Below, piece after piece: positions 5,179 to 58,387 of a stretch of DNA of 64,000 nucleotides. Under the pieces are notes generated by a model. That model saw only the letters and a program-made list of their open reading frames with translations. It did no database searches and was not told the origin of the DNA. The translations under genes and the position numbers were made by a program. Source of the stretch: Halosimplex rubrum. GTDB taxonomy: Archaea > Halobacteriota > Halobacteria > Halobacteriales > Haloarculaceae. The number at the start of each line of letters is the position of its first letter. The first letter of the stretch is position 1. The stretch covers positions 2,852,001 to 2,916,000 of the forward strand of contig NZ_CP058910.1 of the NCBI RefSeq assembly GCF_013415885.1, read 5' to 3'.

Positions 5179-6225
5179 TTAATGACCAGCAGCGGGATGC
5201 GCATCGTCATCCCGATCATTCTCGATCGGTTCGTAATCGGCGTCGTTGCCGACTGGCTTGAACCCGGGGACGTAGCTGAAGCGTTTCCCTGGCTCGCTGC
5301 GGAACATCAACGGGAACATGCCACGATGCTCGCGAGCGCGGTACTGTGGCTCCCATTCTCGGAATTCCATCGTTGGTTTGGCAATCTGTGGGGCAGGCAG
5401 CTCTGCACGCTCTAAGTCTGATAGCTCAAGCACGCGCACTTCGAGTTCACGCGCCAGTTTCTCGGTTCGAGGCGTCAACTCGGTCGTGTGACAGAGCACT
5501 GGCATCGCACGACAGGCAAACGCCACCGTACACAACCGGAAGAGAGCTGTCGGGGTGATTGGGTCGTCTGTCCAGTCTTTACACTGGGCGACAATCCAGT
5601 CGCTTGGCTGCTGCTGTTTCTCACTCCGTCTGGCGACGACATCAATCTCCATACTATAGAGGTGTTGGCGTGTCGCTGCACGGTATCCCCAGCGTCCGAG
5701 TGCACGCTCAAGTTGATACTCGAGCCACCGCCCATCACCATTCCCACGCCCCCCGACGTGCGGGTCAACGTTGTCAAGGTTGATATCCTCTCTGTCGGCG
5801 AGAACTGGACTATCTTCCGGGACCGATGACAGAATGTCTCGAAGGGCTGTCGCGTACTCGAGGGCTGTTGTGAACTTCTCGACAGGTGGTTCGTCATAGT
5901 GGTGGGCTGCCGGCTGTACAGCACGGAGTGAGCGAACTAGCCAGCACAACTGCCGTTCGATGTTGATGACTGCAGCCGCGTAGTCATCCCATGAAGCGGG
6001 AGTTAGATCTTCTGCTGAGTCAACATCTCGGTCTGGCTCGGGCAGAATCCGTTCGGCTTCAGTGATCGGCTGGCTCGCGAGGAAGAGGAGCCGGCAGGCG
6101 AACATCCGTTGGTCAGTGGGAAGCGAATGATCGCGCTCGAGTGTTTCACGGAGTGCCTCGATTGTCTTCGTCAGCAGGCTCAGGCGGTCATCGTATCCCT
6201 CTGGAGTGGGCTCATCCGTCGTCAT
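5179..6225 (-). CDS. PD-(D/E)XK (Mrr-like) endonuclease domain protein, 348 aa
   Basis: In the middle of the protein, GRWLEYQLERALGRWGYRA is followed by MEIDVVARR and then WIVAQCKDW. This is the E...(E)xD...QxK arrangement of the restriction-endonuclease-like fold, close to the Mrr/RecB-like group. The N-terminal 140 residues are helical with no recognised domain, and the C-terminal 90 residues are unassigned and end in an Asp/His-rich tail. It is the last gene of a minus-strand run with overlapping starts (7296 to 5179), so it is co-transcribed with a wHTH protein and an unknown protein. A defence or DNA-processing role is inferred; no methyltransferase is nearby. Confidence 0.75.
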   Translation of the reverse strand: MTTDEPTPEGYDDRLSLLTKTIEALRETLERDHSLPTDQRMFACRLLFLASQPITEAERILPEPDRDVDSAEDLTPASWDDYAAAVINIERQLCWLVRSLRAVQPAAHHYDEPPVEKFTTALEYATALRDILSSVPEDSPVLADREDINLDNVDPHVGGRGNGDGRWLEYQLERALGRWGYRAATRQHLYSMEIDVVARRSEKQQQPSDWIVAQCKDWTDDPITPTALFRLCTVAFACRAMPVLCHTTELTPRTEKLARELEVRVLELSDLERAELPAPQIAKPTMEFREWEPQYRAREHRGMFPLMFRSEPGKRFSYVPGFKPVGNDADYEPIENDRDDDAHPAAGH

Positions 6226-6913
6226 CGGTGAGTGGACTCGGCGTAAAGTGCTGGCGCGTCAGCGAAGTCTCCGAGAGCGACTGGACGGTCGGCTGACCCT
6301 GCTTCTGGACGTGATGAGAGAGTTCCGCTTCGTCGGTGACGGTGTACCACTGGTGACTATCGGCTCCTCGATACCGGAGTTCGTCCTCGACAGCCACGAG
6401 GACGCCCTGTTCAGTCATCCCGGCCGTATCGAAGACGAGAACGGCCGGGTCCGGATTCGTCCAGGTGCCGCGAATCAAGGCGAGAAGCGTGTCGAGTGTT
6501 GGCGGATCGACGGGGTCTGGGTAGCGTGGTTCCGCGGGGGCGCTAATCGCAACATCACGGATGGTGTCGCGACGACAGCTGCGCCAGCCAGCGCCTGTCC
6601 ACTCGAGTTCACGCCGCGTCCAGCTATCGCCGTCGCCGTCGGGCTCCAGAACGAGCCGCCGCGGTGGAGACGTAGTTGGAGTCCACTGGAGGACACACGA
6701 GCCGCCATCTGGGAGTGGGTTGTCGTCTGTTCGACGGTGCTGTTCAAAGAGCGCAGCGTCGATCTGCGAGCGTGCACGTCGGAGTGTGGTGATTGGGTCT
6801 GGGACTGGCGTGGCTGCTGTCTCATCCGTGTTATCGACCGCCTCAAAGAGCCGGTGGAAACGGCCATCGATGTCTCGAAGCGTCGCGAGGGCGTGCGCTT
6901 GGGTGTCTGTCAT
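6212..6913 (-). CDS. Conserved-looking hypothetical protein, 233 aa
   Basis: No family is recognised. The protein is acidic and haloarchaeal in character. It has a helical N-terminus (ATLRDIDGRFHRLFEAVDNT), a central part with Trp-rich strands (VLQWTP, WTRRELEWTGAGWRSCRRD) and a segment GTWTNPDPAVLVFDTAGMTEQ that resembles a small alpha/beta fold. Its stop overlaps the start of the downstream nuclease gene by 14 bp, and its start overlaps the upstream wHTH gene by 4 bp. This points to translational coupling and a joint function. It could be a partner or specificity protein for the nuclease. Confidence 0.7.
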   Translation of the reverse strand: MTDTQAHALATLRDIDGRFHRLFEAVDNTDETAATPVPDPITTLRRARSQIDAALFEQHRRTDDNPLPDGGSCVLQWTPTTSPPRRLVLEPDGDGDSWTRRELEWTGAGWRSCRRDTIRDVAISAPAEPRYPDPVDPPTLDTLLALIRGTWTNPDPAVLVFDTAGMTEQGVLVAVEDELRYRGADSHQWYTVTDEAELSHHVQKQGQPTVQSLSETSLTRQHFTPSPLTDDDG

Positions 6914-7296
6914 GTGGATTCCTCCGACTTGGGCTTGTAGCAGGCCGTCTGGAGTCGACGAATGTATTCGGCGAGCGGTTCCGTCGCGTCCGTCGAAGTC
7001 ACAGTCTTCGAACGGTCATCATAGTCGACCGCGCCGACCCCATCGAGCGTCTCAAGATGCCGTTGGGTCAATGCGATGTAGACTGGGGTTCGGTCGTCGC
7101 TCCCGACTTTGCTGGGGTCGATTCCGTTTTCGATGGCCGCGATTTCGACCGCAAGCTCGTCAGCAGTGACTTCATCGGGAGCCCGTGACAAGGACAACAG
7201 GACGCGACGACGGCGACGGTTCCCGATTGCATCGAATACGCTATCAGGATCCATTGGGATGGCAAGTGACGCCGATTCGCTGGATGTCGCGGTCAT
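6910..7296 (-). CDS. Winged-helix protein (DUF7344-like), 128 aa
   Basis: The sequence PDSVFDAIGNRRRRRVLLSLS, followed by a helix and PVYIALTQRHLETLDGVGAVDYDDRSKTV, is the layout of the haloarchaeal winged-helix family often named DUF7344 (assignment from memory). It probably binds DNA and may control the operon it heads. Its stop overlaps the next gene by 4 bp and its start overlaps a possible short upstream ORF by 4 bp. Confidence 0.8.
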   Translation of the reverse strand: MTATSSESASLAIPMDPDSVFDAIGNRRRRRVLLSLSRAPDEVTADELAVEIAAIENGIDPSKVGSDDRTPVYIALTQRHLETLDGVGAVDYDDRSKTVTSTDATEPLAEYIRRLQTACYKPKSEEST

Positions 7297-7562: not shown

Positions 7563-7942
7563 ATTCCGCTGGACTCGTGCTAGTCTGGCGTAGGAGCGAT
7601 TGTAGCTTTTATATCAGCACCACAAACCTCGCACGCCGAATTCCGGTCTTTGAGTACTTTTACCGCTCGAATCAGTCCGTATGCTTAATCACTTAGTAAA
7701 TCACACTCCACGCCTACCGGTAGCTAAAAACAAACCACTCACAACACGAGTGATCCGGGGAGGCGCTTGCGCTCCGGAAGTATGGAAACAGATTGTCGGC
7801 TAAGTCCACATCGACAACATCAGCACGTAAATCGCACTTGCTGACTTATCCGCAAGTGCCTAATAGTGGTTACGGGAGATTCGTTCTCGGACGTGACGAG
7901 TACGGCTCTCTAGCCCTCGGAACGTAGAATTTGATTTTAGAA
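7563..7942. other. AT-richer intergenic region, no gene seen
   Basis: Nothing convincing on either strand. The base composition falls abruptly relative to the operon on the left. Confidence 0.6.
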
Positions 7943-8458
7943 CTATGTGTTTGCCGATTCCAAATAATCTGGTTTGTTTTCCCCATTAGCTGCGAATTTG
8001 AAGAGCGTTGATTGATTTTCAGGATGGGTTTCTAACCTGTTATGCAAGGTTGTGTGTTCACTGTGCGATAGCAATTCGAGATTAGTCGGACGATTATCGA
8101 AGGCAATCTTCGTTTGATGATGGACATCACGGTTGTACACAGCTTTGGTGCCATGCTCAGCGACCATAACTAGTTGATGGATGTCGACTGATCTGTGTGA
8201 TCCGGACGCTTCCTCGTTGCCATCAGTATTCGTCCGGAAGGTACTGCGTCTGGTCCATGGTCCGGGGCCTCGAGTTGGAACTTTGCGGTCTTTCATTCGC
8301 CGGTGGACCGTTGTTATCGAAACCCCCACCTTCGTTGCGATGTCTTTGAGGGTCATTCCGTTGCCCCAATACATTTCTCGTAGGTTTTCGGCTGTATCCC
8401 AAACCCAGATTTTACGATTCATCTGAAGGGTCTGTTGTCGTGGGTCATCTGGTTCCAT
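7943..8458 (-). CDS. HTH plus HNH-type endonuclease, 171 aa
   Basis: The N-terminus has a Hin/Sigma-like helix-turn-helix, LREMYWGNGMTLKDIATKVG followed by VSITTVHRRMKDRKVP. The C-terminal half carries an HNH-3-like segment: VYNRDVHHQTKIAFDNRPTN followed by LELLSHSEHTTLHN, with paired His and the Asn/His pattern of that nuclease fold. Such proteins occur in haloviruses and as free-standing homing nucleases. The gene sits in an AT-rich island (7.6-9.1 kb) with codon use unlike the GC-rich neighbours, which suggests recent or viral origin. No intron or intein context is visible. Confidence 0.75.
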   Translation of the reverse strand: MEPDDPRQQTLQMNRKIWVWDTAENLREMYWGNGMTLKDIATKVGVSITTVHRRMKDRKVPTRGPGPWTRRSTFRTNTDGNEEASGSHRSVDIHQLVMVAEHGTKAVYNRDVHHQTKIAFDNRPTNLELLSHSEHTTLHNRLETHPENQSTLFKFAANGENKPDYLESANT

Positions 8459-9117
8459 GTTATCGTTCTAATTAGTAGTCAGAGCCGAATTATTATAATA
8501 TTTTCTTCATTTTCCAATTGATTGAAGGATATCTTCAGTTATTTATTTAGATTGGACTGTAATCTGCCATAGATCTTTCCAGAGACCACTAATGGCCGGA
8601 ATTTTAGCCCAAATTTCCAACCCTCTGCGAAATAGAATCACCCGCACTCAGGCATCTTATCTAGTAATACTGTATGCTTAATATAAATTCAATACACTCC
8701 GTGCGATTTGGAGAGGAGCATAATAACCACACTCACAAAATCAGTTTGACATTTCAATTCGTGATTTGGCGAGAAAATCATATCGTACGCCCAGTCGGAG
8801 TTGTGACAACTGGACCAGTAATTCGCCAGATAACCGAACAACACCCCCAATACGGTAGTCGGCTATCAGAGAAGTCACCACAAAGGAACTGTCCGAATCG
8901 TTCTGAACCACTAATAAAAATAGAATTTTTACTACTATCTCTTTCGGCTAAAAGTTCTAAGCGATTTTGTGAACATAGATCGCCCAAACGTGTGCACCCA
9001 GCAGGACGGGGAAATAAGTCGAAGCGACACATATTAGAATATTCTCCTACCCCTCGAACCTTACTTGGCTGTGAGACTCTAGTTGACAGCTCCTATAGCT
9101 ATGTTTAAACCCTACTC
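8459..9117. other. AT-rich region without a supported gene
   Basis: A 144-codon frame exists on the plus strand (8674-9108), but its product has no recognisable motif and is Ser/Arg/His-rich. The stretch includes TATA-like sequences and the 11-mer GTATGCTTAAT, which also occurs near 7679. Confidence 0.5.
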
Positions 9118-10400
9118 TTGACTGCCAACTTCGGCCTTACTCCGCGTTCTCTGCCGGCCCCGGCTACTCCCCGCCGCCGCGCTCATCATCTGGCCCCGCC
9201 CTGTCCTGCTTCTCGGCTCCGCCCTGATCAGCCCGCCCACGGCAACGCGGGGAGACTATCCCCCCGCTCTCTACACCAACCCCCACCCACCATCCTTCTC
9301 GCTCCCCTTCTCCCGAGTCAGAGAAGGGGTCCGCCGCGCCCACCCTCGAGTGCCGTCGCCCGTCGAGAGCTGTCCCTCCTGCTGTCGCTGTCTGCTGTCG
9401 CCGTCTGTTGTCGCCCTCCGCTCCCCGCCCCACCCACCAACCGCTGCCGCCGTCGTTGTCGTCGTCGCTCTCGCTCCCGCCCAATCCCCCACCCTCGCTC
9501 CTGCTCCTCGCCATCGCCCTCGTCGTCGACGCCGACGTCGTCGCTGTCGCTATCGCCGCCCCCGGACCCCAGTGCTTCCGCTGTTCTCGCTCCACCCAAA
9601 CCCCATCGTCTCTCGAGACGCCGCCTCCTCCCTCTCGCTACGCGACATCGCCTCCGGCATATGCTGTCGCCGTCGCCCCCTCTCTCGTCGCCCCGGACCC
9701 AGCTGTTCTCCGTCGCCGTTCGCCGCGAAGATGACTCCCCATCATGGCGAGTCCAGACCACTCCCCGAATCGCCGCCCCCCGGCGCGACCGCAGCAGTCC
9801 CCCGCCCATGCCGAGCCACGACGGACCCACCACCTCGCCACTCGTTCGCCAGCCACCCATCCTCGCTGTTCGGTCCTCGTCAGACGACTCCCGTAGCCCC
9901 ACCCCTCACCAGACGATCTCCCCCGCCGCTGCGCTCACCAGACGTCGTCCACCGAAGCCGCCGGTCGCCTCCTCGCTCCTCGCTGTCTTCTCAACTCAGT
10001 CCCTCGCCAGTCGCCGCCGCCGAGATCGTCCACGCCACACCTCGCCGTTGACGCCTCCTGTCCTCCTCGCCTCGCCGCGCCTCTGCCCCGCCTCCACCCG
10101 TGCGCTCCCCCAGGGTTCCCTCCACTATCAACAATCTGGTAGTACCTCTATCGCCTACGCTCCCACTCCACCCCTCTCCCCCGCCGGCTCCTCGGCTCTG
10201 CCTGAATCAGCCGCCACGCGACTACCCACTGGAACTTCAACTCCCCTGAACCCTAATTGTGTAATTTCGGCTGGTCATGTTCGAGCAATAGAGATTGCTT
10301 TAGAGATGCTATCGAAGGCTCTCAGTTTGTGGCTGAACGTGTTCGCTCGATTTCGGCCCCTCCAGAGTAATGATTTACCCCCGTTAATCCTGCCGCCATA
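9118..10400. other. 1.3-kb pyrimidine-rich, low-complexity tract
   Basis: The plus strand is strongly enriched in C and T: in 9421-9480 I count only 12 G and 4 A out of 60. It is built from short variants of CCTC, CGCC, TCGCTC and CCGTCGTCG. The open frames that result (430 aa on plus, up to 194 aa on minus) encode Pro/Arg/Ser or Gly/Arg/Arg-rich products with no domain and no acidic bias, and I do not accept them as genes. The opposite strand is a long GA-rich strand. Confidence 0.7.
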
Positions 10401-10402
10401 CC

Positions 10403-10847
10403 GTAATTAGTGGAAATGTAGTCTAAAACGTATAAGATAATATGGGTGGGTCGGATTCGATTGCCGTCTGGTAATTAGGGGTGGTCTGAGCCGCTGGTTC
10501 ATGGGTTATTACGACTACCTTGAATTCCATCGCCGTCCCGTAATTAGCCATCTAATGAGTGGGTGCGTCAATCCTGCTGCCGTCCCGTAATTACAGTTGT
10601 TATCGTCGGTAGTAGACGCCGAAAATCCCGGTAATCACGAACCCCCGGTAATCCGCGCCCCGTGGTGTAATTAGGGGTTTGATTAGGAGCAGGCGCAATT
10701 CGGACGCCGTCCTGTAATTACGGCTTGGCTTGGGGGAGCTGTTGATCCAGTTTCGGGTGTAATGAGAGAGCATCCAAACTGGGGGTGCGTCCGGTAATTA
10801 CACGTCTAATGAGGTGTTCCGATGATTCGGCCGCCGTCTGGTAATTA
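10403..10847 (+). repeat. GTAATTA repeat array with higher-order 127-bp period
   Basis: Eight exact copies of GTAATTA occur at 10403, 10471, 10540, 10587, 10667, 10714, 10794 and 10841. The second member of each close pair, and several others, are preceded by GCCGTCYNG. From 10540 on, the spacing alternates 47 and 80 bp exactly, giving a 127-bp unit repeated at 10540, 10667 and 10794. Eleven bases after the first member of each pair is TCTAATGAG (10551, 10805) or a variant. Weaker copies (GTAATCA at 10631, GTAATGA at 10759) fill the longer gaps. The first two spacings are 68 and 69 bp. Confidence 0.8.
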
Positions 10848-11297
10848 GAGCGTGCTCTGACTGCCGTTAGTATAAGAATCGTGATATGGGGTGGTGCTAT
10901 TCGGGAAGGTTCGGAGCTTGATCGACGGTTGGTATTGGTTCAGGCTCATGTTCACGCGAGGAGCGCGCCACCAGTTACGTGGTATCGACGCGACCCCCGA
11001 GGTTTGTCGTGTGTATGCCGACGCGGAGGCGTTCTCCACCCGTTGCGAACAAAATCTGCGAAGACTGCGAGTAGTTCGCGTACAGATTCTGCGAAGATTG
11101 CGAAAACGCCGAGGGTGGGAGGCACCAGCGGTCGCGTGCCGAGGCCGGGGTGACGGCTATGGCGGTGCGGTGGCTACCGGTACCCGAGATCCTGGCGTGT
11201 CCGAAAAGAATGCCTGTTGTGGAGTGTCGTTGAGCTTCGCGTCCACGGAGTTCGAGCAGATGCTGGCCGAACTGTAGAGCCAGCCCAACGACTCTGG
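10848..11297. other. Region without a supported gene; short direct repeat
   Basis: An 18-bp direct repeat with two mismatches (ATCTGCGAAGACTGCGA type) occurs at 11053-11070 and 11085-11102. A 128-aa plus-strand frame across the region is basic and unlike haloarchaeal proteins, so it is not called. Confidence 0.45.
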
Positions 11298-11492
11298 TTA
11301 CGCTTCTGCTCCGTCAGCTTCCTCGTCCGCCCCGTCGTTCGCTGCCGGGGAGACCTCGCCCTCTTGGCCGAGGTCAATGACGAGCGCACCGGGGACTTTC
11401 ACGCTACCGATGTCTTCGTCCCACTCCGGCGGGTACCGAATCGTTTGGTCTGGCTTGATGTTGTGCTGCTTGAGGAACCCGCTCACCGACAT
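11298..11492 (-). CDS. Small acidic hypothetical protein, 64 aa
   Basis: The product begins MSVSGFLKQHNIKPDQTIRY, contains PPEWDEDIGSVKVPGALVID and ends in an Ala/Glu/Asp-rich tail. It has clear haloarchaeal character. It lies 21 bases after the stop of a broken upstream gene on the same strand and may have formed an operon with it. No family is recognised. Confidence 0.6.
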   Translation of the reverse strand: MSVSGFLKQHNIKPDQTIRYPPEWDEDIGSVKVPGALVIDLGQEGEVSPAANDGADEEADGAEA

Positions 11493-11513
11493 GGAGACAC
11501 GATCATCGTTCCA

Positions 11514-11746
11514 CTAGAGCGAGTAGACGTTCGTCCGGTCGTAGTCTTCCTCCAGCGGGATGATTGCGATCTCGTTGTCGTCCTCGTTGTACGCCCGGAT
11601 AACTGCTTTCTTCCCTTTGAGGTACTGCTTGGACACCGTGGAGTTCGGCGCGAGCTGGCCGTTCTCCCGAAGCGAGACGAACTCCAGCCTGTGGAAAACT
11701 CCGTAGCCTTCGTCACTGAGCGCGTCCGAGATTTCGTCGAGGAGTG
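11514..11746 (-). pseudogene. 5'-truncated hypothetical gene
   Basis: The frame reads LLDEISDALSDEGYGVFHRL, then EFVSLRENGQLAPNSTVSKQ, then KGKKAVIRAYNEDDNEIAII and LEEDYDRTNVYSL-stop. This is clearly protein-like and acidic, but an in-frame TAG precedes it and no start codon is available. It is therefore the C-terminal part of a gene whose 5' end has been lost near 11747. No family is recognised. Confidence 0.55.
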
Positions 11747-17221: not shown

Positions 17222-17342
17222 AATCGCTTCTGGTTGCGCCGACACTATCCCGAACGCGCTAAGTCAAATAGAGGAGCGTATCGCTTCTGTGGTTGACTCC
17301 TAACGTTTTAAACGTCTGTCACCCAAAGCCCCGAGTGTTCAG

Positions 17343-17603
17343 ATGCATTCCCCTCCAGCGGACAGTTCGGGCGGACCGAATGACCTCGTCGTCGAGATCA
17401 TCGAGACACTGGAGACATGCGGGCTCGAAGACGACGGCTATCAACTCCACGATTACGTGGACATCGATGCGCTCGAACAGTTGCTTGCCTCATCCGATGG
17501 GGACATCGCCGTCCAGTTTACTGTCGAAGGGATTCCACTCGAGGTCTCACCGGACGGTGTCGACGTCATCGTCGAGGATGAGTCCGAGTGCGTCAACGAA
17601 TAA
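17343..17603 (+). CDS. HalOD1 output-domain protein, 86 aa
   Basis: The sequence LVVEIIETLETCGLEDDGYQ, then LHDYVDIDALEQLLASSDGD and IAVQFTVEGIPLEVSPDGVD, follows the pattern of the HalOD1 domain, a small haloarchaeal module thought to act in signal output. It is freestanding here. The promoter area contains ACGTTTTAAACGT (17303-17315), a palindrome that could be the TATA region or an operator. Its 3' end overlaps a truncated primase frame. Confidence 0.75.
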   Translation: MHSPPADSSGGPNDLVVEIIETLETCGLEDDGYQLHDYVDIDALEQLLASSDGDIAVQFTVEGIPLEVSPDGVDVIVEDESECVNE

Positions 17604-18711
17604 CGACAGCTTCGAGACGGCACTCGAGTACGTCGAAACAGGGAATGCTGATGGCGTTGGCTTCGTCTTTACTGACGATGATCCGATTGTTGGCGTGGAT
17701 CTCGATGACTGCCGCGATCCTGAGACCGGGGACGTCGACGACGCGGCGCTGGACATCATTGAGCGACTCGACTCCTATACGGAGATTTCGCCATCCGGCA
17801 CCGGCTACCACGTGCTCATCACCGGAGAGCTACCGGAGGGCCGAAACCGCCGCGGAAGTATCGAACTGTACGACACCGCGCGCTTTTTCACCGTTACTGG
17901 CAACCACGTTGAGGAGACTCCCACTCACGTTGCACGCCGACAGGACGCGCTCGTAGCGATTCACCGCGAGTACGTCCATGACACTGATAGCGATGTGAAG
18001 TCCGAATCCGGGTATCGTGGCACTACTGACGAGCAGTCAGCAACGAACGGTGGAGGCGGGGTTGACGTTGACCTCGAGGACGAGGAGATTCTCGAGAAGG
18101 CAACGAACGCGTCGAATGGGACGAAGTTCGAGCGACTCTGGAACGGGAACACGGTCGGATACGACAGCCAGTCGGAAGCCGACATGGCACTCTGCTATCT
18201 GCTGGCGTTCTGGACCGGCGGCGACCAAACACAGGTAGATCAGCTCTTTCGCCAGTCAGGGCTGCTCCGGGAGAAGTGGGATGAAGTCCACTACGCGGAT
18301 GGGTCGACGTACGGGGAGAAGACCATCGAGCGGGCGATTGCGAACACCTCGGAGTTCTATGATCCCGACTCGGGCGACGAGTCCACGCAATCCCACGCCA
18401 GTTCGAGTACGTCGACTACCGATGCCGGACGTGACGAATCAGATCGTAGTCACGCGTATCTGGCCGAGAAAAATCGGCTGTTAACCGACCGTGTCGACGA
18501 ACTCGAGGCCACGCTCGAACAGAAAAACGAGCGTATCGAGACACTCGAAGCAGAGATCGAGCGGCTCACGGAAGAACTCGCAGATCGTGACCGAGAGACA
18601 GACCGGACCCACGAAGAGCAAGCGGTCACTGCGAGCGAGAGCGATGATGAGTCCGAGACAGCGTCTGTTTGGGGGCGGACGAAACGGTTGTTCGGGAGTG
18701 GCTCCGAGTAA
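17578..18711 (+). pseudogene. N-terminally truncated primase/polymerase-like protein (NrS-1 type)
   Basis: After the HalOD1 gene, a second frame reads SFETALEYVETGNADGVGFV, then FTDDDPIVGVDLDDCRDP, then DSYTEISPSGTGYHVLITGE and RRGSIELYDTARFFTVTGNH. This is the pattern of haloarchaeal proteins related to phage NrS-1 primase-polymerase, with the DxD pair in GVDLDDC. Roughly the first 90-100 residues are missing. The possible start (ATG 17578) lies inside the HalOD1 gene. A helical domain follows (WNGNTVGYDSQSEADMALCY), then a coiled coil (RLLTDRVDELEATLEQKNER and after) and a Ser/Glu-rich tail. It could be a translated shortened protein rather than a dead gene. Confidence 0.7.
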
Positions 18712-30777: not shown

Positions 30778-32010
30778 ATGACGCCCGACTCTTCACCCAG
30801 TTCTGTCGACGATCCACTCTTTGAATCCGGGCATCGCATCTTCGCGAACAAGGATCTCCTGAAAATCGGCCACGTTCCGGAGGCTGACCGGATCGTCGGT
30901 CGCGACGAGGAAATCTCGAAGCTCGCGAAACGTCTCAACGGTGCTGTCCACGGGTACTCCCCGGAGAACGTGATGATCTACGGGAAAACGGGGACCGGGA
31001 AATCTCTCGTTTCAAAACACGTCTGTCAACGAGCTCAAAATGCCGCTCAGGATGGCGTCAAGATTGGAACAGCGTATATCGACTGTGCTGAAGACAACAC
31101 GGAGACTCAGGCGATCTCCTCACTTGCCGCGAAGCTGAACGATGAATCTTCGACTGGAATCTCCGTCCCACATACCGGCCTCAGTACGTCGAAATACTAC
31201 AAACTCCTCTGGAAGACGCTCGACGCTCAATTCGATTCTGTGATCATCATCCTCGACGAGATCGATCTGATGAACGACGACAGCGTGCTGATGAAGCTCT
31301 CGCGCGCTGAGGAGGCGGGGAAAATCGACTGTAGCGTCGGCGTCATCGCGATCAGCAACAAGATCCAGTACGTCGACAACGTGAACGAGCGCGTGAAAAG
31401 CAGCTTCCAGCACAAGGAGCTGTTCTTCAAGCCATACGACGCCAACCAGCTCCGGGAGATCATGTTCAACCGTGAGGACGCCTTCCAGGACGGCGTCCTT
31501 TCCGAGGACGTGATTCCGCTCTCGGCGGCCTTCGCCGCGCAGGAACACGGCGACGCTCGGAAGGCGATCGACATTCTTCGCCACGCCGGCGAGGTCGCCT
31601 ACGAGGCCGGAGCAGAGCAAGTGACGGAGGAACACGTCCGCCAGGCACAGCAACACGCCGAAAAGGACCGGTTCAGAGAACTCGTGAACGGCGCACCCAC
31701 GCAGGCGAAAGCGGCGTTGCTGGCGCTCACGGAACTGAGTGTCAACAGCAATGACGATGCGTTCCTCACGAGCCGGGTGTACGACCAGTACGAACGCATC
31801 TGCAACCATCTCGATATGGATATCCTCTCAGTCCGTCGGTTCCGCGACATCCTGAAAGAGCAAGCCTTCCTCGGGGTTGTCGAAATCGAGAAGATCAACA
31901 AGGGGAGTGCGGGCGGCATCCACCTCCAGAACCGACTCATCGAAGATCCCCAGGTCGTCCGCGAAACGATCCTCGAGGACAGCCGGATGCAGGACTGGAC
32001 TCGCGAGTAG
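30778..32010 (+). CDS. cdc6: Orc1/Cdc6 replication initiator, 410 aa
   Basis: This is an AAA+ ATPase with Walker A GKTGTGKS (69-76), Walker B LDEID (159-163) and sensor region VIAISN. A C-terminal winged helix (LTELSVNSNDDAFLTSRVYD, LSVRRFRDILKEQAFLGVVE) recognises the origin boxes. It assembles on the ORBs flanking the gene and loads the MCM helicase. The length is normal for archaeal Orc1/Cdc6. Box sequences both upstream (30556-30728) and downstream (32038-32141) show that it is the cognate initiator of this replicon. Confidence 0.97.
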   Translation: MTPDSSPSSVDDPLFESGHRIFANKDLLKIGHVPEADRIVGRDEEISKLAKRLNGAVHGYSPENVMIYGKTGTGKSLVSKHVCQRAQNAAQDGVKIGTAYIDCAEDNTETQAISSLAAKLNDESSTGISVPHTGLSTSKYYKLLWKTLDAQFDSVIIILDEIDLMNDDSVLMKLSRAEEAGKIDCSVGVIAISNKIQYVDNVNERVKSSFQHKELFFKPYDANQLREIMFNREDAFQDGVLSEDVIPLSAAFAAQEHGDARKAIDILRHAGEVAYEAGAEQVTEEHVRQAQQHAEKDRFRELVNGAPTQAKAALLALTELSVNSNDDAFLTSRVYDQYERICNHLDMDILSVRRFRDILKEQAFLGVVEIEKINKGSAGGIHLQNRLIEDPQVVRETILEDSRMQDWTRE

Positions 32011-32149: not shown

Positions 32150-34318
32150 CTACGACAGTTCGTTGGTGGCTCCGAACGAACTCAAAACGGCGTCCCTCTC
32201 ACCGGAGAGCTCCCGGCGAATGTCGGAGCGGTCCCATCCGAGCGGTGAAAGCACGCTCTCAATCGCTCGAACCAGCTGCGTCTCGTAGTACGAGGCGTCG
32301 TAGGTCTTGATCTCCTCGTGGACGAGGGCGACCCGGTCTCGCGAGGATTTCTCGTCGTCGACGACCACGTACTCGATATCCTGACCCGGGTGGACTGCCA
32401 GGTCCTGCTCGCGGGCTCGCTTCAAGGCGGCCACGTTCTGGGTATTCTGTGAGTAGCCCTCCAGGGGCTTCGAGACACGGTTCCGTTCGACGAGCCGCTC
32501 CACCGCCACGTTGCCTGCCTGCAGTTCGTCGATTGCTCGTTCGAGCCGGCCGAGCACCGCGTCCGGTGACCGCGTGGCATCGAGCTGGTCGAGACAGTCC
32601 CGCTGGACGTCCTCGATGAACGGCGGGGTTGAACGCTGCCGGGCTTCGATGCCTCTGACCTTGAAGTCGTCGTCGCCGGCGACCTTCCCAAAGTACTTCG
32701 TTAGCGCGCCGGCGTCGCTCTCGCGCTGCGGGACGAACGCCACCCAGTCGTAGTGGGCTTCGTGTTCGAGCCGGATTTCGACCTCTTCCGTGATTGCCGT
32801 CGCGAGCGTCTCGAGGTCCTCACGGTCATCGTCGTCGACGTCGGGGTCCGGCGTCACCCAGATGGAGTCGACGATGCCGTGGACGACGCGCCAGCCGCCC
32901 GCTTCCAGCCGCTGTTTCGCCGTCAGCAGAATCTCACGAGCGAATGCATTAATCGCCTCGTGGCACTCGATGCGGCCGAACTTCGCGTTGCTGAACCCTT
33001 GATAGCCGAAGCAGGCGACGAGGATCCACTTTAGCGCTCCCGACCGCCCTTCGAGTTCAGCCAGGCGGTCCTCGTCGGGATCGTCCCGTTCCTTCTCACG
33101 ACGGATGGCCGCCTTGATCTCGTCGCGTGCGTTGATGATTGGCTGTAGCACATCGACGAGGTAGCCCCGGTCGTCGCAGATCGAGTATTCGAGCCCGGGG
33201 ACGTCGTCGCGGTCGCCGTGGCAGTCACACCGGATGACGTCCGGTGAGACGTTCCGGGTACAGATGATGTTCGGGTACAACGAGGAGAAGTCGAGTTCGT
33301 GGACGTTCTCGTGAAGGCCGACCTCGGGGGCAAAGATGAACCCGCCGCGGTCGGCGTCGTGGAGCGTCCCCATCGGCTTGTAGAACTCGTGGCGCCAGGA
33401 GTTCCACGGGACGAGGACGCCGCGGTCGTGGGCCTCACAGATTTGAATCGCGGTGAGGACGTTCCCGATCGACGCCCACGCGAGCTCCTGGACGGGCTTT
33501 TTCGAGCGCGACACGAGGTCGATGACGCCCTCGAGGTTCGTCTCCCCGTAGAAGAACGTGTTCGACTCGTCGATGATCGCCCGTCCGGGCACGTTGTACC
33601 GCGCCGGTGAGTGACCGACGCGACCGTAGCTCGAGTACGTCGACCGGCTCGCGAGCTGCTGGTAGTCGACGTCCGGCCACCGACTCAGCGAGAAGTCGTC
33701 GATGCCGGCGTCCGTCGCCATCTCGTGGAGGGTCGGGACGATTTCGCTCGTCGAGCAGACCAGGACATCTGGATCGTGTGCGTCGAGCGCCCCCTGGACG
33801 GCGGGCAGGAGATCCGTCGGCGAGCCGATGACGGTGTCGCCGGCGACGGACAGCTCCCCATAGACGTCGTTGCTCGTTTCGGTCACCGGAACGCTGAGCC
33901 GGAGCGTCGACAGCTCGCTCGCCGGCGTCGGATCGGCGCCGGTCTCCAGACAGTACCGAAACTCTCGCGAGAAGTCGACATTGAAACAGGTGAGATCCCC
34001 GACTGGATAGGCCGACAGCTGGCGTGCCTGCCGGGCGAGTGGGGTGACACGGTCGATGTGGGCAACGTCGACCGCAAGAACGGCCTCCTCGTCTCGTCGA
34101 AAGCCCGGCCGTCGCGCAACCATCTCGGTCGCGACGACATCCGGGTGCTGGTCGTACACCGACTGGAGGGTCGTGAGGTCGAGGTCGGACGCTGGGTCGC
34201 GAGCGGCGACGTAGAAGCGCGGCGAGTAGTCTTCGTGCTCGGTCGCGACGGCGCCGTCGGCGGTTGTCTCCCACTCCAGGACACGGCCGTCGTCCAGGAA
34301 GCCAATACTGAATGACAT
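32150..34318 (-). CDS. polB: B-family DNA polymerase, 722 aa
   Basis: Polymerase motif A is ELDFSSLYPNII (Asp343), motif B is KWILVACFGYQGFSNAKFG (Lys430) and motif C is HGIVDSIWV (Asp484). In motif C the usual DTD is I-V-D; the retained Asp is the one known from RB69-type structures as the essential metal ligand. The exonuclease region around 183-193 (DPDVLVCSTSEIV) lacks a recognisable DxE, so proofreading is probably absent. It belongs to the haloarchaeal plasmid/PolB2-like group. It is convergent with cdc6 and shares the origin region, so it probably replicates or repairs this replicon. Confidence 0.92.
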   Translation of the reverse strand: MSFSIGFLDDGRVLEWETTADGAVATEHEDYSPRFYVAARDPASDLDLTTLQSVYDQHPDVVATEMVARRPGFRRDEEAVLAVDVAHIDRVTPLARQARQLSAYPVGDLTCFNVDFSREFRYCLETGADPTPASELSTLRLSVPVTETSNDVYGELSVAGDTVIGSPTDLLPAVQGALDAHDPDVLVCSTSEIVPTLHEMATDAGIDDFSLSRWPDVDYQQLASRSTYSSYGRVGHSPARYNVPGRAIIDESNTFFYGETNLEGVIDLVSRSKKPVQELAWASIGNVLTAIQICEAHDRGVLVPWNSWRHEFYKPMGTLHDADRGGFIFAPEVGLHENVHELDFSSLYPNIICTRNVSPDVIRCDCHGDRDDVPGLEYSICDDRGYLVDVLQPIINARDEIKAAIRREKERDDPDEDRLAELEGRSGALKWILVACFGYQGFSNAKFGRIECHEAINAFAREILLTAKQRLEAGGWRVVHGIVDSIWVTPDPDVDDDDREDLETLATAITEEVEIRLEHEAHYDWVAFVPQRESDAGALTKYFGKVAGDDDFKVRGIEARQRSTPPFIEDVQRDCLDQLDATRSPDAVLGRLERAIDELQAGNVAVERLVERNRVSKPLEGYSQNTQNVAALKRAREQDLAVHPGQDIEYVVVDDEKSSRDRVALVHEEIKTYDASYYETQLVRAIESVLSPLGWDRSDIRRELSGERDAVLSSFGATNELS

Positions 34319-41939: not shown

Positions 41940-41984
41940 TCGCCGGTAGAATTAAGCAACGAGCCGGCAACCGTTAGAGTATGA
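41388..41984 (+). pseudogene. Truncated IS5-family transposase
   Basis: The frame reads MKREDGFVTSKLARFTDRVV to SKIGWQMVKRNL, closely similar to the intact copy at 36599-37459. It then departs into SPVELSNEPATVRV and a stop that overlaps the GH51 start. It lacks the second Asp and the Glu of the catalytic triad. Confidence 0.9.
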
Positions 41985-44158
41985 GTCGAGAAGCACCAGC
42001 AGTCTCGATAGCTGTCGATACCGACGACACGGGAGAGTGGAGCGTTTCGCCGCTGCTCTTCGGTAAGTTCCAGGAACATCTCGACAGCGCCATCTACCCG
42101 GGCGTCTACGAGGATTATCTCCGGAACGGCTCCTTCGAGGTGTGGAACCGCTCCGGTGACGGGCCGATGGCGGGCATCGTTTTCGAGAATGTCGCAGAAC
42201 ATGAGGGAGTCGCCTACCCGTGGCAGCCCGTCGATAGCGATGCGACGTACGAGCAGGTGAGAGGAGGGGTCCACGGTCGCCACCGCGACGACGCACTTGA
42301 CGGAGGGCCGGAGGTTCCGGAGGAGTTCGCTCCGGTCCCCGGGGGCGTCACGGAGTCGCGATTCCAGCGGGTCCTACTCCACGGCAGGAACGATGGGAGT
42401 GTAGACGGCGACGTCGCTGCCGGCGTTTTCCAGCGCGTGGCGTTGCCTGACCAGCGCGTCCAGACGTTCGACGTGACGGTGACCGTTCGCGGCGAGGGCG
42501 TGGACGAGTGCACAGTCGCGCTGACCGCCCTCGACGGCGAGACGCTGGCGTCGGAGACAGTTCCGGTGACGGATTCGTGGAACCGTGAGGAAGCCACGCT
42601 CGAACTTGCCACCTCAACCACCGATCGCTACAGCGAGCCCCGATACGGCACGTACGACCTGACGATCACGGCCGAGGGGTCGGGACACCTCGATCTCGAC
42701 TGGTCGACGCTGATCCCGGCCGACGCGGTCGAGGGGATCTACAACCCAACGACGATCGAACTCCTGCAGGAGTTCGACGTGACGACGATCCGCTGGCCGG
42801 GCGGCAACTACGCGAGTCAAGTCCGCTGGCGCGACACGGTCGGTCCGGTCGAGGATCGACCGGTCATTCCCATCGTCAACTGGGGTGGACTGGAGCCTAA
42901 CTACCTCGGTACCAACGAGTGGCTGCGCTTCTGCGAACTGGCAGACGTCGAGCCGTACATCACGGTACCGTTCTGGTCTGCGACAGGCCCCGAAGAAGCG
43001 GCCAACTGGGTCGAGTACGTGAACGGCGACCCCGACGAGACGGAACTGGGAGCGCTACGCGCAGAACACGGCTACGAGGAGCCCTGGGACGTGACCTACT
43101 GGGGGATCGGAAACGAGGTTTGGGGGTACTGGCAGGTCGGCAACACCGACGCCGCGACCTACGCAGAGGGATACGTCGAGTACTGTGACGCGATGCGGAC
43201 GGTCGACCCCGACATCGAAATCGACGCGACCGCGATCGACCCCTGGTTCACCAGCGTCCACGACGGCGACACTGAGGACAGTCGCGAGGGCGAACCACCG
43301 ATCTGGAACGAGGTACTCTTCGAGACGGCGGGCGACGCCATCGAGGGGATCGACCTACACCGATACACCGCCGGGATCAAGGGCGATGCGGCGGAGTCAC
43401 GCGAGGCGTGGCTCGAAGACCACGACGAGGACCCCGTCGGCTACAACGAAGTGCTCGTCAACTTTCCGCAGGTCTACGATCGCCTGCTCTCCGACGTCGA
43501 AGCACTGGCTACAGAACACGGCGTGCCCGACTGTCGGCTCACGATCGGCGAGTGGAACCTCGGCCCCGCGGTCAATGACGACTGGCCGTCCGCGCAGATG
43601 GGGACGATGGCTCACGCCGCTTACGCCGCAAAGACCTTCCAGACGTTCATCCGCCACGGGGACCACGTCGAGATGGGCCACTGGACGGACTACACCCTGT
43701 ATCCGCATCCCGACCCCCGCGGGCCGGCACCGCCCCACCCCGGTGCGTACATCCAGCGCGAGATGGCCGATCCGCTGCTAGAGAGTGACAGCGAGTGGAC
43801 CGTCACCGACACGAGCGTTGACAGTCCCGAGCGCCCCTTCCTGCAAACGGGTAACTGGAGCATGGCGGCCGATGACGTTGCTCTCGTTGACGCCGTGACT
43901 ATCGTCAGCGAGAACGGGACGAGCCACACCTTCGCGACCAACGGTTCGCTTCGAGAGAGCTACGATACGGAAATCGAATTTGCCGGCGACGCCGGGAGCG
44001 TCGCGGTGACGCTGTATCGTCCAGTCGACGACGACCCGTTCTTGGCCCAGGAGTCTTGGGAAGAACCCGACGCCTTCGTGGTCGAGACGTTCCCCCTCGA
44101 CGACAGGCGACTTGAACTCCCGCCGGCGTCGTTCGCGAAGTTCACGCGCCGGCCGTGA
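41981..44158 (+). CDS. GH51-type alpha-L-arabinofuranosidase, 725 aa
   Basis: The (beta/alpha)8 part contains IRWPGGNYASQVRWRDTVGP, the acid/base TYWGIGNEVWGYWQ (Glu379) and the nucleophile RLTIGEWNLGP (Glu524). A carbohydrate-binding-like beta domain precedes the barrel (about 85-240), and a C-terminal beta domain ends SFAKFTRRP. No signal peptide is seen, so it acts in the cytosol on imported oligosaccharides. The start overlaps the truncated transposase frame. The TATA-like GAATTAAG at about 41949 is immediately behind the IS relic, so its promoter may be partly IS-derived. It differs from the second GH51 at 52073 in sequence details. Confidence 0.92.
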   Translation: MSREAPAVSIAVDTDDTGEWSVSPLLFGKFQEHLDSAIYPGVYEDYLRNGSFEVWNRSGDGPMAGIVFENVAEHEGVAYPWQPVDSDATYEQVRGGVHGRHRDDALDGGPEVPEEFAPVPGGVTESRFQRVLLHGRNDGSVDGDVAAGVFQRVALPDQRVQTFDVTVTVRGEGVDECTVALTALDGETLASETVPVTDSWNREEATLELATSTTDRYSEPRYGTYDLTITAEGSGHLDLDWSTLIPADAVEGIYNPTTIELLQEFDVTTIRWPGGNYASQVRWRDTVGPVEDRPVIPIVNWGGLEPNYLGTNEWLRFCELADVEPYITVPFWSATGPEEAANWVEYVNGDPDETELGALRAEHGYEEPWDVTYWGIGNEVWGYWQVGNTDAATYAEGYVEYCDAMRTVDPDIEIDATAIDPWFTSVHDGDTEDSREGEPPIWNEVLFETAGDAIEGIDLHRYTAGIKGDAAESREAWLEDHDEDPVGYNEVLVNFPQVYDRLLSDVEALATEHGVPDCRLTIGEWNLGPAVNDDWPSAQMGTMAHAAYAAKTFQTFIRHGDHVEMGHWTDYTLYPHPDPRGPAPPHPGAYIQREMADPLLESDSEWTVTDTSVDSPERPFLQTGNWSMAADDVALVDAVTIVSENGTSHTFATNGSLRESYDTEIEFAGDAGSVAVTLYRPVDDDPFLAQESWEEPDAFVVETFPLDDRRLELPPASFAKFTRRP

Positions 44159-44267
44159 AAGCGATACGGACAGCCGCAGATGTAGCAGAAACCTGACGGA
44201 TTTTTTCGTCCGGTAGCTTGATACTCTAACACATGCCACATCCGTTCTGGTCGCTGGCGTGCTAGGC

Positions 44268-44459
44268 GATGCCGGTGATCCGGATCTTGCTCGTCGTCGA
44301 ACTCGTCTTCGTGATTCTGCTCGCGCTCGTGTTCCCCACTTTCTCCCCGTCCCCCCGGTGTACTACGTCAGCGGCTTTTCCTTCGCCGTTATCGCCGTGA
44401 CCGTCGCCGGGATGTCGTTCGTCTACTGGAAGTGTCTGAACTACCAGCCCACAGATTAA
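44268..44459 (+). pseudogene. Small two-helix membrane protein with a frameshift
   Basis: The first frame gives MPVIRILLVVELVFVILLAL and VFPTFSPS. After a C-run at about 44351-44356 the next frame continues PVYYVSGFSFAVIAVTVAGM and SFVYWKCLNYQPTD-stop. Joined, they make a typical haloarchaeal two-helix membrane protein of about 63 residues. The break is in a homopolymer, so a sequencing error is possible. Confidence 0.6.
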
Positions 44460-44592
44460 TCGAGACTTCCTGAATCCTTCAGTGGTCACCTAGGTGGGTG
44501 ATCTGGCCGGTAGCTCTGGTGGATATTTTACTTCGTTTACAGCGAAAAACTATAAAATCATCCGATTGAAATTTTTTAGTTGGGCATGCAGT

Positions 44593-46530
44593 TCATATCT
44601 CGGTCACCCTCTCATATTCCTCATCGAGGGCTTGGGCATCCTCAGGGAGGAGAGCGACGACGACGTACTCGGCATAGTCGGCAACGTACTCAACGAGGCG
44701 GGCGATGCGGTCGGAATCGATCGCCTCGATCGAGTCCATCAGGAGGAACGGACAGGTCTCGTAAACGTCGTGGGTAAGATAGCCCGCGAGCGCGAAGACT
44801 AACCCCGTGACTTCCCGTTCAGACTCCGAGAGGTGGTCGACAGTATCTTCGTAGGTAGTTCCGTCTGCCGTACTGCGGACCACATGCAATTCGAAGACGG
44901 ATTGTTCGACACTCCGTCCCCCCTGTGAAACCGTCTCTTGGCGGCGCTCGATCCAGATCCGCTCCAAATTTTCGTAGCTCAAGATCTCCAGCACGGTCTC
45001 CATGTGCTCGTTGAACTGATCGACGGCTTCGCTCTCGACCTGGTCGATGCGCGTCCGCAGGTCGGCGATTTCGTCGCTGATCTCCTCCCGACGGGCTTTG
45101 AAGTTGTCTCGACGCTCGAGTTCTTCGTCGATACGGTCGATCTCGGAAGTGACCTGGCCGAAGTCATCTTGGAGTTGGTTGAGTTCGAACTCGAACTGGT
45201 TGGCCTCGCGGTGGAGGTCGAGCAGGTCGCTCTGAGTTTCGTCTTCCAGGGTTTCGACCTCCGCTTCGAGTTCGTCGATCTCGGCTTCGAGACGGTCGCG
45301 CTCGGTCTCGAGTTCTTCGACTCGACCGCGCCGCGTTCGAAGTTCCGATTGGATCTGTTCGATCCGGTCTTCCAACTGCGTACGCTGGCGTTGTTGCTCT
45401 TCGAAGGTCGCCTTCTCTGTTTTCAGGTCGTCCATCTTGGACTGGATCTCACGGCGTTCCTGAAGTTTCTCGCTACGGAGGTCACGGAGTCGGTCAAGCG
45501 TTTCTTCGATGATGTCGCTTTCGACAGTGCTCCCACACGTCCAGCAGACAACCTGCTCGTCGACTAGTCTGTCAGTGGGGTCGTCCATGTCTCGAAGTGC
45601 GGCTACGACATCTGAATCCGCCCCCTCAAGCATTTCCTCGTTGAACTGGATAACCTTCTGGAGGGAGTTAGTCACATCGTCAATATCCGCGCGCTGTGAA
45701 CGCAATTCGTCAAGTCGGTCGGCTACCTCATCGACGCCGGCCATTGGGGTTTCCGAGAGCTCGTCTAATTCGCTTTCCAGGTCGTCGAGTTCCGATTCGA
45801 GGGCGGTGATGCTCTCGCGCTCCATCTCAAGATTATATCGTGTGTCTTCGAGCTCACCCCGCGTTTCGCGGAATGATTCAAGCGCGTCGTCAAGCTCGTC
45901 TTTCTGATCGCGCGTGGCACTGAGGTCCTGATCAGCATCCTCGATGGCTTCTTTGGTCGCTTCGAGTTCAGCCTCTTTCTCTTCGATTTCCTGCTTGAGG
46001 TCCTGTCGGCGCTGTTCCAACGTAGGTAGTTCCCGCTGCATCGAATCGAGATTCTCAAGCTGTCGTTCGACGTCATTCCGTTGGTCTTGGAGCTCCTCGA
46101 TCCCGGCTTCGATAGCCGCTGTGTCGACAGGGCGCATAATGAGTTCGCGAAGACCCTCTTCAAGTTCGACAGCTCGGCGCGCTTCGTTGGACTCCAATAG
46201 GAATACGAATAGGTCAGCCAACTCCGGGTTGTCGAGAAACGCATCGCCGTCAGCGTAGACACCGCCGCCGTTAGTTCGGGTGAGCGTTCGTTTATACGTC
46301 TCATCTCCGATGGTCAACTCGACATGGGCTTCGTCTGCGTCACCCTTGATCGAGACGTTCTCGCTGCCCAATCCAGCCATCAATGCCTGTAGGAACGAGG
46401 TTCGATTCGTCGCATTCCGGCCAGCCAGGATTGTAACACCGGATGAAAAGGAAACTGAGGATTCATCGATGCCACCGATATTCTCAATGGAAAGTTGAAC
46501 GGGATCCGTTGCTGAAAGTGGTGTACTCAT
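44593..46530 (-). CDS. Archaea-specific SMC-related (Sph-like) coiled-coil ATPase, 645 aa
   Basis: The N-terminal Walker A is relaxed (AGRNATNRTSFLQALMAGLG, residues 36-55). Long coiled coils (about 140-320 and 340-510) flank a zinc hook VCWTCGS (CxxC at 329-332). The C-terminal part carries the signature-like SESEREVTGLVFALAGYL and the Walker B/D-loop region CPFLLMDSIEAIDSDRIARL. This is the haloarchaeal SMC-related family, thought to act in chromosome or cell-shape functions and often next to the rod-determining factor rdfA. No rdfA is present here, and the gene sits alone between carbohydrate genes and a gene-free stretch. Confidence 0.88.
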   Translation of the reverse strand: MSTPLSATDPVQLSIENIGGIDESSVSFSSGVTILAGRNATNRTSFLQALMAGLGSENVSIKGDADEAHVELTIGDETYKRTLTRTNGGGVYADGDAFLDNPELADLFVFLLESNEARRAVELEEGLRELIMRPVDTAAIEAGIEELQDQRNDVERQLENLDSMQRELPTLEQRRQDLKQEIEEKEAELEATKEAIEDADQDLSATRDQKDELDDALESFRETRGELEDTRYNLEMERESITALESELDDLESELDELSETPMAGVDEVADRLDELRSQRADIDDVTNSLQKVIQFNEEMLEGADSDVVAALRDMDDPTDRLVDEQVVCWTCGSTVESDIIEETLDRLRDLRSEKLQERREIQSKMDDLKTEKATFEEQQRQRTQLEDRIEQIQSELRTRRGRVEELETERDRLEAEIDELEAEVETLEDETQSDLLDLHREANQFEFELNQLQDDFGQVTSEIDRIDEELERRDNFKARREEISDEIADLRTRIDQVESEAVDQFNEHMETVLEILSYENLERIWIERRQETVSQGGRSVEQSVFELHVVRSTADGTTYEDTVDHLSESEREVTGLVFALAGYLTHDVYETCPFLLMDSIEAIDSDRIARLVEYVADYAEYVVVALLPEDAQALDEEYERVTEI

Positions 46531-48149
46531 TATTTGATTGTGGTTAATAGTTCCAGATAAACATTACTTCCGGATTAGGTCTTAAAAAGTTTGAGACTTG
46601 CGTATATAGCCACCCATCAGCCATTACCTTTATGAAAATTAAACAAATTATATGATTCGGGTAGTTCTGCAATCTCATCCTGAAATGCGTTGCCCGAAAC
46701 ATTGAAATCAGTATCAGCCGCTCATGACCGTGAATTCACGCGACTAAACAATACCCCGATTTACGGGTCGCCTGTCGAAAGCACAGTGTAGACCGGCGTT
46801 CGGGACCTTCTGCTGGCGTTCGATGAGGATATTCTGTCGCCGTCGATCACGACGGCGTACGATCGATTCTTCAGCGACTCTCCGAGACTGCAGAGATCGA
46901 CATCGACCATCCGAAACACGACTCTCTATGACCGGTGAGGCGGGCGATTTCTGCCATAGACCAGCAAGAAATCTTGACTCTCACATTTTATGTTTAAATG
47001 ACACGGCCAGCATGAGAGAGAAAGGAAGTTCTACTTCCGTCTGGATTTCGAAGACTAGACAGTCGGCATCAGGGGATCCAACTGGTATCGTGAACAGAGT
47101 TGGGTGGGCCGTACCGTGCCAATAGTACGAGATCAAGCGGAATAGCTGCGAAGTGATTGAGGCATCGAGATCGATGACAGCCTACGTGTCATATGTGAGA
47201 GAACATCAACCGCGCTGGGTCTCAGTACTTAATGTCCAACACGTGGGGCCGCAGCACAGATGGAAACTGCGGCTTATTGAAAAGGAGGATGATACCCGGA
47301 TCAATTTATTCTGACACTCTTAAGCAGTTTCAGTCGAAGACGATATCCTATGATTCGAAAATATCGAACCACCTGTTGACCCAATTCGGCTTCTCAACAG
47401 GGAACTCTTTTTCCCTACTGATCGCTTCGAGCGTTGGATCGTTCACCCAAAATTGGGATCGATAGTAGCGAAAGAGGATTTGTTAGGCGCAACTGAGTGA
47501 ATGGGGGCTGAGTATCCATCTACCAACCGGTATGACCACCGAAAAGGGCGGATCTTGCGTCAGACTCTGTTGGGGTATTAGCTGTGGGTGCGGACAAAAT
47601 TACAATCATGAATATGTAATTTTAGATGGCCACGGAGGATTCCAGTGCTCTGTGATCCGGGGTTAGCCTTCGACCGGTATCGTAGTGCCTTCGGCCAATA
47701 GAGCGACGACCGGATGATCTGAATACTATTCGAAGTGTTCTACTAAACAAGCGGATCTCTCCCATCCGTACCTCCCGAAGCGAACTGAGCCCCTCATCAT
47801 TGCGTTCCTCAGCGAGCGTGCCTATACTGTTTTCTCGGGAACCAATGTGTTAATCGAGTCGATGATAGTGATATTGTTTTTAGAAGTTCATCGGTCGCCC
47901 GCCCATCAAACTTCAACAATTAGCATTACAAGTATAACAATGTAATGGTGGTAGATTTGGTCGAATCACGGATGGTGGAGTGATATCGATCAATTGCCGG
48001 TTCCAACCAGATTCCTCCGGGACGACGCTTTCATGAGACGGTTTGCAGAGGGCATGTTACGGTGAAACATTCTAGTTCGATATTATCGAAGCAACCAATT
48101 GATTTGGTCATCACATTCTAAATGAACCAAACTCAGCGAGCGAAATCAT
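46531..48149. other. 1.6-kb stretch without a supported gene
   Basis: Only short, non-protein-like frames are present. A plus-strand piece at about 46835-46930 (YSVAVDHDGVRSILQRLSET, EIDIDHPKHDSL) looks like a decayed coding sequence. Otherwise it is AT-richer intergenic DNA separating the SMC-related gene from the first IclR regulator. Confidence 0.5.
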
Positions 48150-48157
48150 TATAAATG
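48150..48157 (+). promoter_or_regulatory. TATA box of the IclR gene at 48181
   Basis: TATAAATG lies 24-31 bases before the ATG, consistent with a leaderless transcript. Confidence 0.55.
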
Positions 48158-48180
48158 GAAAAGCATGATATTTACGCAAG

Positions 48181-48957: not shown

Positions 48958-49031
48958 ACTATGTTCGCCAATTCTTGAGTTGTTGACCGTACTGGGTGAG
49001 TCGAAAGTGGATCGCTGGCTTGCCTATCTTT

Positions 49032-50105: not shown

Positions 50106-50210
50106 CTTGTCCGCTCGTGGCGATTCGAGTTGATGAATCCATCCTAAACTGTAAACAATAACTCACGTCCGAAGGAAACAGTTAAGGACGATACCACCTC
50201 TGCACAGAGT

Positions 50211-51965: not shown

Positions 51966-52072
51966 CTGCAATTGACTCCATCTCTGGATATCCCGATCCA
52001 ATTGTCGAAACTAGTTTCCCCTGCGACGGTACGTATCCCGTCGCAGGGAGAGGACGAACGCAGAGTCGGGGA

Positions 52073-54217: not shown

Positions 54218-54332
54218 CGCTCAGCATCGGTGGTGAAATATGTTTCCCATTGCTTGGTTATCTATCGTCGTGCAATCCGGACGCGGTACGGTCCGGCAGA
54301 CATGGGCCGGAGAGGTGGGCGAAGGTGATTCG

Positions 54333-57443: not shown

Positions 57444-57678
57444 GTCCGTGGATGCTGCGTCCGTGATTCGTGGCGCTTCCCCGACATTTCATCATGGACC
57501 GGCCTGATCGATTGCTGCTGCCCGCCTGATCCATTAGTGGCTGATCAGTACTCTTCAAGGATAACTGATGGAAACGGTAAAGTCGTTTTGGAAATTATAA
57601 TATTTCTTTCAACATTGTCTGATGGGCACTGTCTAGTTGAAGGATTGAGAAACGAGGAGGTCGTAGCGAGTTCTGTCC

Positions 57679-57841
57679 ATGAAGCTCGCAGACCTCTTCA
57701 GAGAAGAGTTAGAGGTAGAGAATCAAGACACTTAGGAGAACGAGCGCACGCCGACACCCGTGCGCTATTTCGCGGTTCGACTTCATTCAATGGGGTTGTC
57801 CGTGCGTGAAGTCGATGGTGTCTTGGTTGAGTGTCCATCGC
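57679..57841 (+). pseudogene. Transposase N-terminal remnant
   Basis: MKLADLFREELEVENQDT-stop is followed, one frame away, by RTPTPVRYFAVRLHSMGLSV and REVDGVLVECPS. Together they resemble the N-terminus of a haloarchaeal IS6-like transposase (LHSMGLSVRE motif). It is broken by a stop and frameshift and cut at about 57841. Confidence 0.6.
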
Positions 57842-57848
57842 TGCTACC

Positions 57849-58363: not shown

Positions 58364-58387
58364 TGGATCGCTTCGGCACTATGGTAT

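Follow-up and report, generated by a model that had tools for sequence, protein, structure and literature searches.

The 64,000-nucleotide stretch of Halosimplex rubrum DNA analysed here (the window) carries an intact array of eight composite sites on its minus strand (10366-10847). We interpret this array, with a probability of about one half, as a cis-acting recognition site similar to an origin of transfer (oriT) of haloarchaeal conjugative or mobilisable elements. We infer this function from full-length loci in related genomes, where T4SS-type ATPase and RHH-like genes neighbour the array and favour DNA transfer over replication or partition.

The original prediction described eight exact copies of GTAATTA at 10403-10847, the last six of which alternate in steps of 47 and 80 bp. 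Both statements are confirmed: the cores start on the plus strand at positions 10403, 10471, 10540, 10587, 10667, 10714, 10794 and 10841 (gaps of 68, 69, 47, 80, 47, 80 and 47 bp), and the first two gaps, which had been omitted, are part of the same conserved design. All 11 matches to GTAATTA on both strands of the window lie inside the array cluster, compared with a mean of 1.1 and a maximum of 5 matches after shuffling the 64-kb sequence. Autocorrelation over 10380-10860 peaks at 127, 254, 174, 47 and 80 bp. The proposed 127-bp higher-order unit is present, but it is one of several unit lengths among relatives (126/127, 136/137, 149 and 157/158 bp). The shared flanks, GCCGTC 5' of the core (AGACGGC when read on the other strand) and TCTAATGAG 3' of it, are likewise real, but they are pieces of a longer composite site. 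Read along the minus strand, the order of these sites is S1 (10804-10847; TAATTAC-CAGACGGC-GGCCGAATC ... TCATTAG), S2 (10757-10800, 47 bp from S1), S3 (10677-10720, 80 bp from S2), S4 (10630-10673, 47 bp from S3), S5 (10550-10593, 80 bp from S4), S6 (10503-10546, 47 bp from S5), S7 (10434-10477, 69 bp from S6) and S8 (10366-10409, 68 bp from S7). The gene caller placed no coding-like gene across the array, and the non-coding nature claimed for the repeat is upheld. A CRISPR or a coding repeat was rejected because the copies are too divergent and do not code for protein; a structured RNA was rejected because nothing in the window matched Rfam at gathering scores.

A search for exact GTAATTA pairs 47 bp apart, as had been suggested, returned only the window among 146 genomes of the family, because the core letters differ between lineages. 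The spacing itself recurs with other letters, and the uniqueness suggested by the exact-pair search is refuted by letter-independent matches. A template scan that considers repeated 14-mers at the right spacing, with no fixed letters, scored the window array at 100 of 112 (the rest of the 20 kb scanned yielded no score above 78). The same scan gave 95-105 of 112 in most loci where the linked ATPase or p207, a protein of ~207 aa described below, has a close relative (at most 80 elsewhere per locus). A sequence-only DNA model built on sites S5-S8 matched 38 of 391 Halobacteria genomes; about 28 of these matches are strong (E 2e-8 or better) and the weaker remainder are probably due to chance. 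The model located two arrays in Hrr. ezzemoulense and one on plasmid pHS2 of Halobacterium salinarum R1 (L092:16446-16902), and arrays also occur on plasmids of Haloarcula and Halorubrum. BLAST identified homologous DNA on Haloarcula sinaiiensis pHsi204 (551 bp at 87%) and on Halopiger pHALXA01, and a genus-level search added an array in Halosimplex pelagicum (template score 87). Arrays are found on large replicons, and some genomes hold two or three of them, at times on one contig. We found no match to the array DNA in phage records, nor to the one protein searched in viral contigs. Absence of the alternation from all relatives had been named as an outcome that would speak against the original prediction; instead, tens of loci have the geometry but spell their cores differently.

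The composite site spans ~44 bp of the minus strand and consists of an A box (positions 0-6), AGACGGC (8-14), GATT (20-23) and, at about +35, a second box that resembles the A box. A G-run often lies between GATT and the second box, following GATT in 39% of sites compared with 10% in the background. The A box of the window is TAATTAC; in other lineages it reads TAAATAC, GTATACG, TTATTAC, TAATGAC, TAATCGC, ATATAGC or others. The two boxes of one site change together across lineages: the second box is closer to the A box of its own array than to those of other arrays (10 arrays, permutation p = 0.00025, an optimistic value given that related lineages are not fully independent). The A boxes of the window are identical at 56 of 56 positions in each comparison with pHsi204, Hrr. 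saccharovorum and Hrr. persicum, whereas array DNA outside the sites is 85%, 84% and 45% identical, respectively (Fisher p = 2e-4, 1e-4 and 7e-18), a test somewhat favoured by the choice of boxes because the window fits the motif.

The geometry is more constant than the letters. Across relatives the spacing follows the scheme 47-X-47-X-47-68/69-68, where X is 79/80, 89/90, 101 or 109/110 bp, such that the X classes differ by roughly one helical turn. With sites matched by a locus-specific matrix and X not preset, the gaps fall into the classes 47/48, 67-70, 79/80, 89/90, 101 and 109/110 bp, with almost none between. Every class is near a half-integer number of turns at 10.5 bp per turn, hence neighbouring sites would face opposite sides of the DNA. 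The phasing of the six classes differs from random gaps with p = 0.0035, and that of the X classes alone with p = 0.04; an earlier test of five classes gave p = 0.0009, and the later, larger set is preferred. In the H. salinarum array one gap of ~69 bp (measured by eye) replaces X, again about one turn shorter. A geometry that is near-constant to the base pair, or shifts by roughly one turn of the helix as the letters diverge, informs how a bound complex would be built.

These observations support the earlier view of protein-binding-like sites with fixed geometry, as opposed to a tandem duplication in decay. Residual similarity between the 127-bp units (autocorrelation 0.41 versus 0.25) and the near-identical units of the relative L053 are what an old, functionless duplication might leave behind, but we regard this explanation as highly improbable: cores are kept at 56 of 56 positions between loci that share 45-85% identity in the rest of the array, the gaps are quantised, and the box changes are coupled.

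In full-length loci the array is embedded in a recurrent gene order, namely a T4SS-like ATPase, in one subfamily the gene for p207, the array, often a purine-rich tract, and a small conserved gene encoding an RHH-like N-terminus. The order ATPase (with or without p207), array, RHH occurs in Haloarcula sinaiiensis pHsi204, Halosimplex pelagicum, Hrr. halophilum, Haloplanus ruber, Halobacterium KA-4 and others. On pHS2 of H. salinarum R1, a laboratory strain, the array is located between an ATPase gene split by an insertion element and an RHH-like gene. Of 18 loci picked by the DNA model alone and fetched with their flanks, six have a full-length ATPase gene 218-521 bp upstream in the same orientation (the ATPase search had already turned up three of these), eight have an RHH-like gene downstream on the same strand, and several have neither within ~10 kb. 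Some arrays stand alone in genomes that also have a complete system. Distant relatives of the ATPase (35-44%) showed no such array.

The linked ATPase, a coupling/VirB4-type protein, matches the NCBIfam TraD model with E 3e-4, and its best fold matches are TrwK/VirB4 (E 7e-5) and then TrwB, which are supportive at most, given a mean pLDDT of 53 for the structure model. By eye, its C-terminal part looks like a winged helix followed by a PD-(D/E)XK domain. One relative of the gene follows an annotated VirB4 gene, and in Halosimplex pelagicum the gene run of the array locus includes small membrane proteins and a VirB4-like ATPase, which matches a VirB4-like model with E 3e-53, under the curated cut-off. 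Relatives of the linked ATPase are encoded on 144 haloarchaeal plasmids, all of which are typed as non-mobilizable. The relaxase family PF03432 is absent from the two genomes searched, and no nick site was identified.

The RHH-like protein is assigned by its sequence pattern, with weak HMM support (best Pfam match RHH_1, E 0.02 in one member), and is the leading candidate for the reader of the boxes. Its residue 8 is methionine in four loci with TAAATAC boxes and arginine with GTATACG. As the sole specificity residue it was rejected on account of two exceptions: L142 and L079 encode identical RHH proteins yet carry different boxes, and L138 and L077 have the same boxes yet differ at this residue. 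The protein p207 was rejected as a universal reader, since the group of ATPases with 66% identity leaves no space for it between ATPase and array; a fold search for p207 returned nothing at E <= 0.001 (best VRN1 B3, E 0.012, and MraZ, E 0.4).

A gene for an RHH-like protein next to iterated half-sites at fixed spacing would also be expected of a centromere on which this protein loads and by which a segregation ATPase moves the replicon. Binding to plasmid centromeres is common among RHH proteins, and the large replicons that carry arrays fit this role. The known examples (pSM19035 parS/omega, ParG, ParR) resemble the array in their series of short half-sites, which RHH dimers bind there and which, unlike those described here, are packed close together. 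We nevertheless consider a centromere unlikely: among the genes called or annotated near the arrays examined no ParA/ParM-type gene is adjacent, one locus has a ParA-like gene at a distance of ~12 kb, the gene that recurs as partner is T4SS-like, and some genomes hold several arrays. RHH proteins often autoregulate, and an array that precedes the RHH gene in the same orientation would suit an operator from which the protein represses or activates transfer genes. Such a role is improbable, as eight composite sites over ~480 bp with helically quantised spacing are more than an ordinary operator, the RHH gene starts roughly 0.65-3.4 kb past the array, and arrays survive where this gene is gone.

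The iteron-like appearance of the array, together with orc1/cdc6 genes on the same elements, raises the possibility of a replication origin, either an iteron or one recognised by Orc1/Cdc6. The G-run after GATT recalls the G-string of halophile ORBs (PMC3528665), the letters of both kinds of repeat vary between families, and the arrays of L128, L129 and L137, which are without ATPase or RHH genes, lie ~4-5.5 kb from orc1/cdc6-like genes. However, ORBs of haloarchaea are inverted and lie immediately next to orc1/cdc6 (PMC3528665), whereas the array consists of eight direct copies and the orc1/cdc6 gene found is ~20 kb away in the window and ~12 kb away on pHsi204. An ORB-like string occurs no more often than by chance in the window and is absent from the array. 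We rejected an Orc1 origin on these grounds, and regard an origin of either kind as quite unlikely.

In the window itself the locus is degraded around an intact array. The linked ATPase is lost, with two distant paralogues elsewhere in the host genome; p207 is broken (11313-11744, minus strand; in-frame TAG at 11514-11516, N-terminal part missing); and of the RHH-like gene there is at most a fragment, a possible remnant at 7747-7845 (minus strand; residues 80-112, tblastn E 0.002) with a matching remnant in Hrr. saccharovorum. Between array and remnant lies an HNH-endonuclease-like gene (7943-8458, minus strand), whose 171-aa product is identical to the Hrr. saccharovorum copy at the same place, which suggests recent transfer between families. 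Three neighbours on the minus strand are conserved: a DUF7344 winged-helix-like gene (6910-7296), found downstream in many relatives, a gene with no assigned function (6212-6913) that is kept beside the array in relatives, and a gene without Pfam match (5179-6225), by eye possibly a PD-(D/E)XK nuclease. The array is followed by a strand-asymmetric tract of 1.1 kb (9110-10250) that is 68% pyrimidine on the plus strand (49% C, 20% G), hence purine-rich on the array strand, and contains no convincing gene; similar tracts follow the array in many, not all, relatives. The long open reading frames at 9118-10410 were rejected as artefacts of C-richness, all three forward frames being open. With its partner genes lost or broken, the window array may be a recent remnant, or may be used in trans with machinery supplied from elsewhere. 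The window as a whole looks like an integrated replicon, given genes for an NrS-1-like primase-polymerase (17293-18711), Orc1/Cdc6 (30778-32010) and a family B DNA polymerase (32150-34318).

Returning to the oriT-like reading, an element-specific DNA-binding protein, of which the RHH-like protein is the leading candidate, would occupy the A and second boxes, and a more conserved component would read AGACGGC and GATT. Together, the bound proteins would shape the DNA into a single, defined nucleoprotein complex and so identify the element to the coupling ATPase, a role comparable to that of RHH accessory proteins at the oriT of bacteria. Against this reading stand the arrays with neither gene nearby, the distant ATPase relatives that showed no array, the relaxase and nick site looked for and not found, the imperfect match between RHH proteins and boxes, and the three arrays near orc1/cdc6-like genes. 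The bacterial systems (R388 oriT-TrwA-TrwB, PcfF of pCF10, TraY of F) are similar in that genes for RHH-like proteins and T4SS-type ATPases flank an iterated non-coding site with element-specific boxes; they differ from the archaeal array, which has eight composite sites over ~480 bp and no relaxase or nic site found. In oriT-only mobilisable plasmids the oriT stands alone and the transfer machinery is elsewhere, a situation to which the lone arrays compare. The 8-bp TRS repeats of the Streptomyces TraB/clt system (PMC4170104) are likewise short and element-specific, and they may label DNA for a transfer ATPase, again with no relaxase known; there, in contrast, the ATPase is FtsK/TraB-like instead of VirD4/VirB4-like, and the composite sites, helical quantisation and RHH-like partner set the array apart.

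Archaeal conjugative elements encode VirB4/VirD4-like ATPases, whereas recognised relaxases are lacking or nearly lacking (PMC9905601, PMC3158045, PMC12857230), and our literature search found neither an archaeal relaxase nor an archaeal origin of transfer. Integrated haloarchaeal elements with VirB4/VirD4/HerA and fusexin genes carry the same kind of transfer genes, and the parts of that report considered here describe no cis-acting DNA site, unlike the array loci (PMC9259645). The array is a candidate transfer site of a kind for which the literature found describes no archaeal example, and it comes with natural specificity classes and a protein that may read them. It would also allow the haloarchaeal plasmids typed as non-mobilizable to be screened for transfer sites. 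We propose, tentatively and with clearly less confidence than the oriT-like reading itself, that it represents a new kind of archaeal DNA-transfer initiation site: a helically phased array of eight sites whose boxes define compatibility groups, which labels elements for a VirD4-like ATPase with no need of a classical relaxase and is portable alone by use of machinery in trans.

Two further observations concern gene content. The arrays of L091 (23969-24448), L128, L132 and L135 are found near a PAS/methyl-accepting chemotaxis-type gene or its remnant. The window also contains a cluster of arabinofuranosidase-like and GH2 glycoside hydrolase genes (41981-61045).
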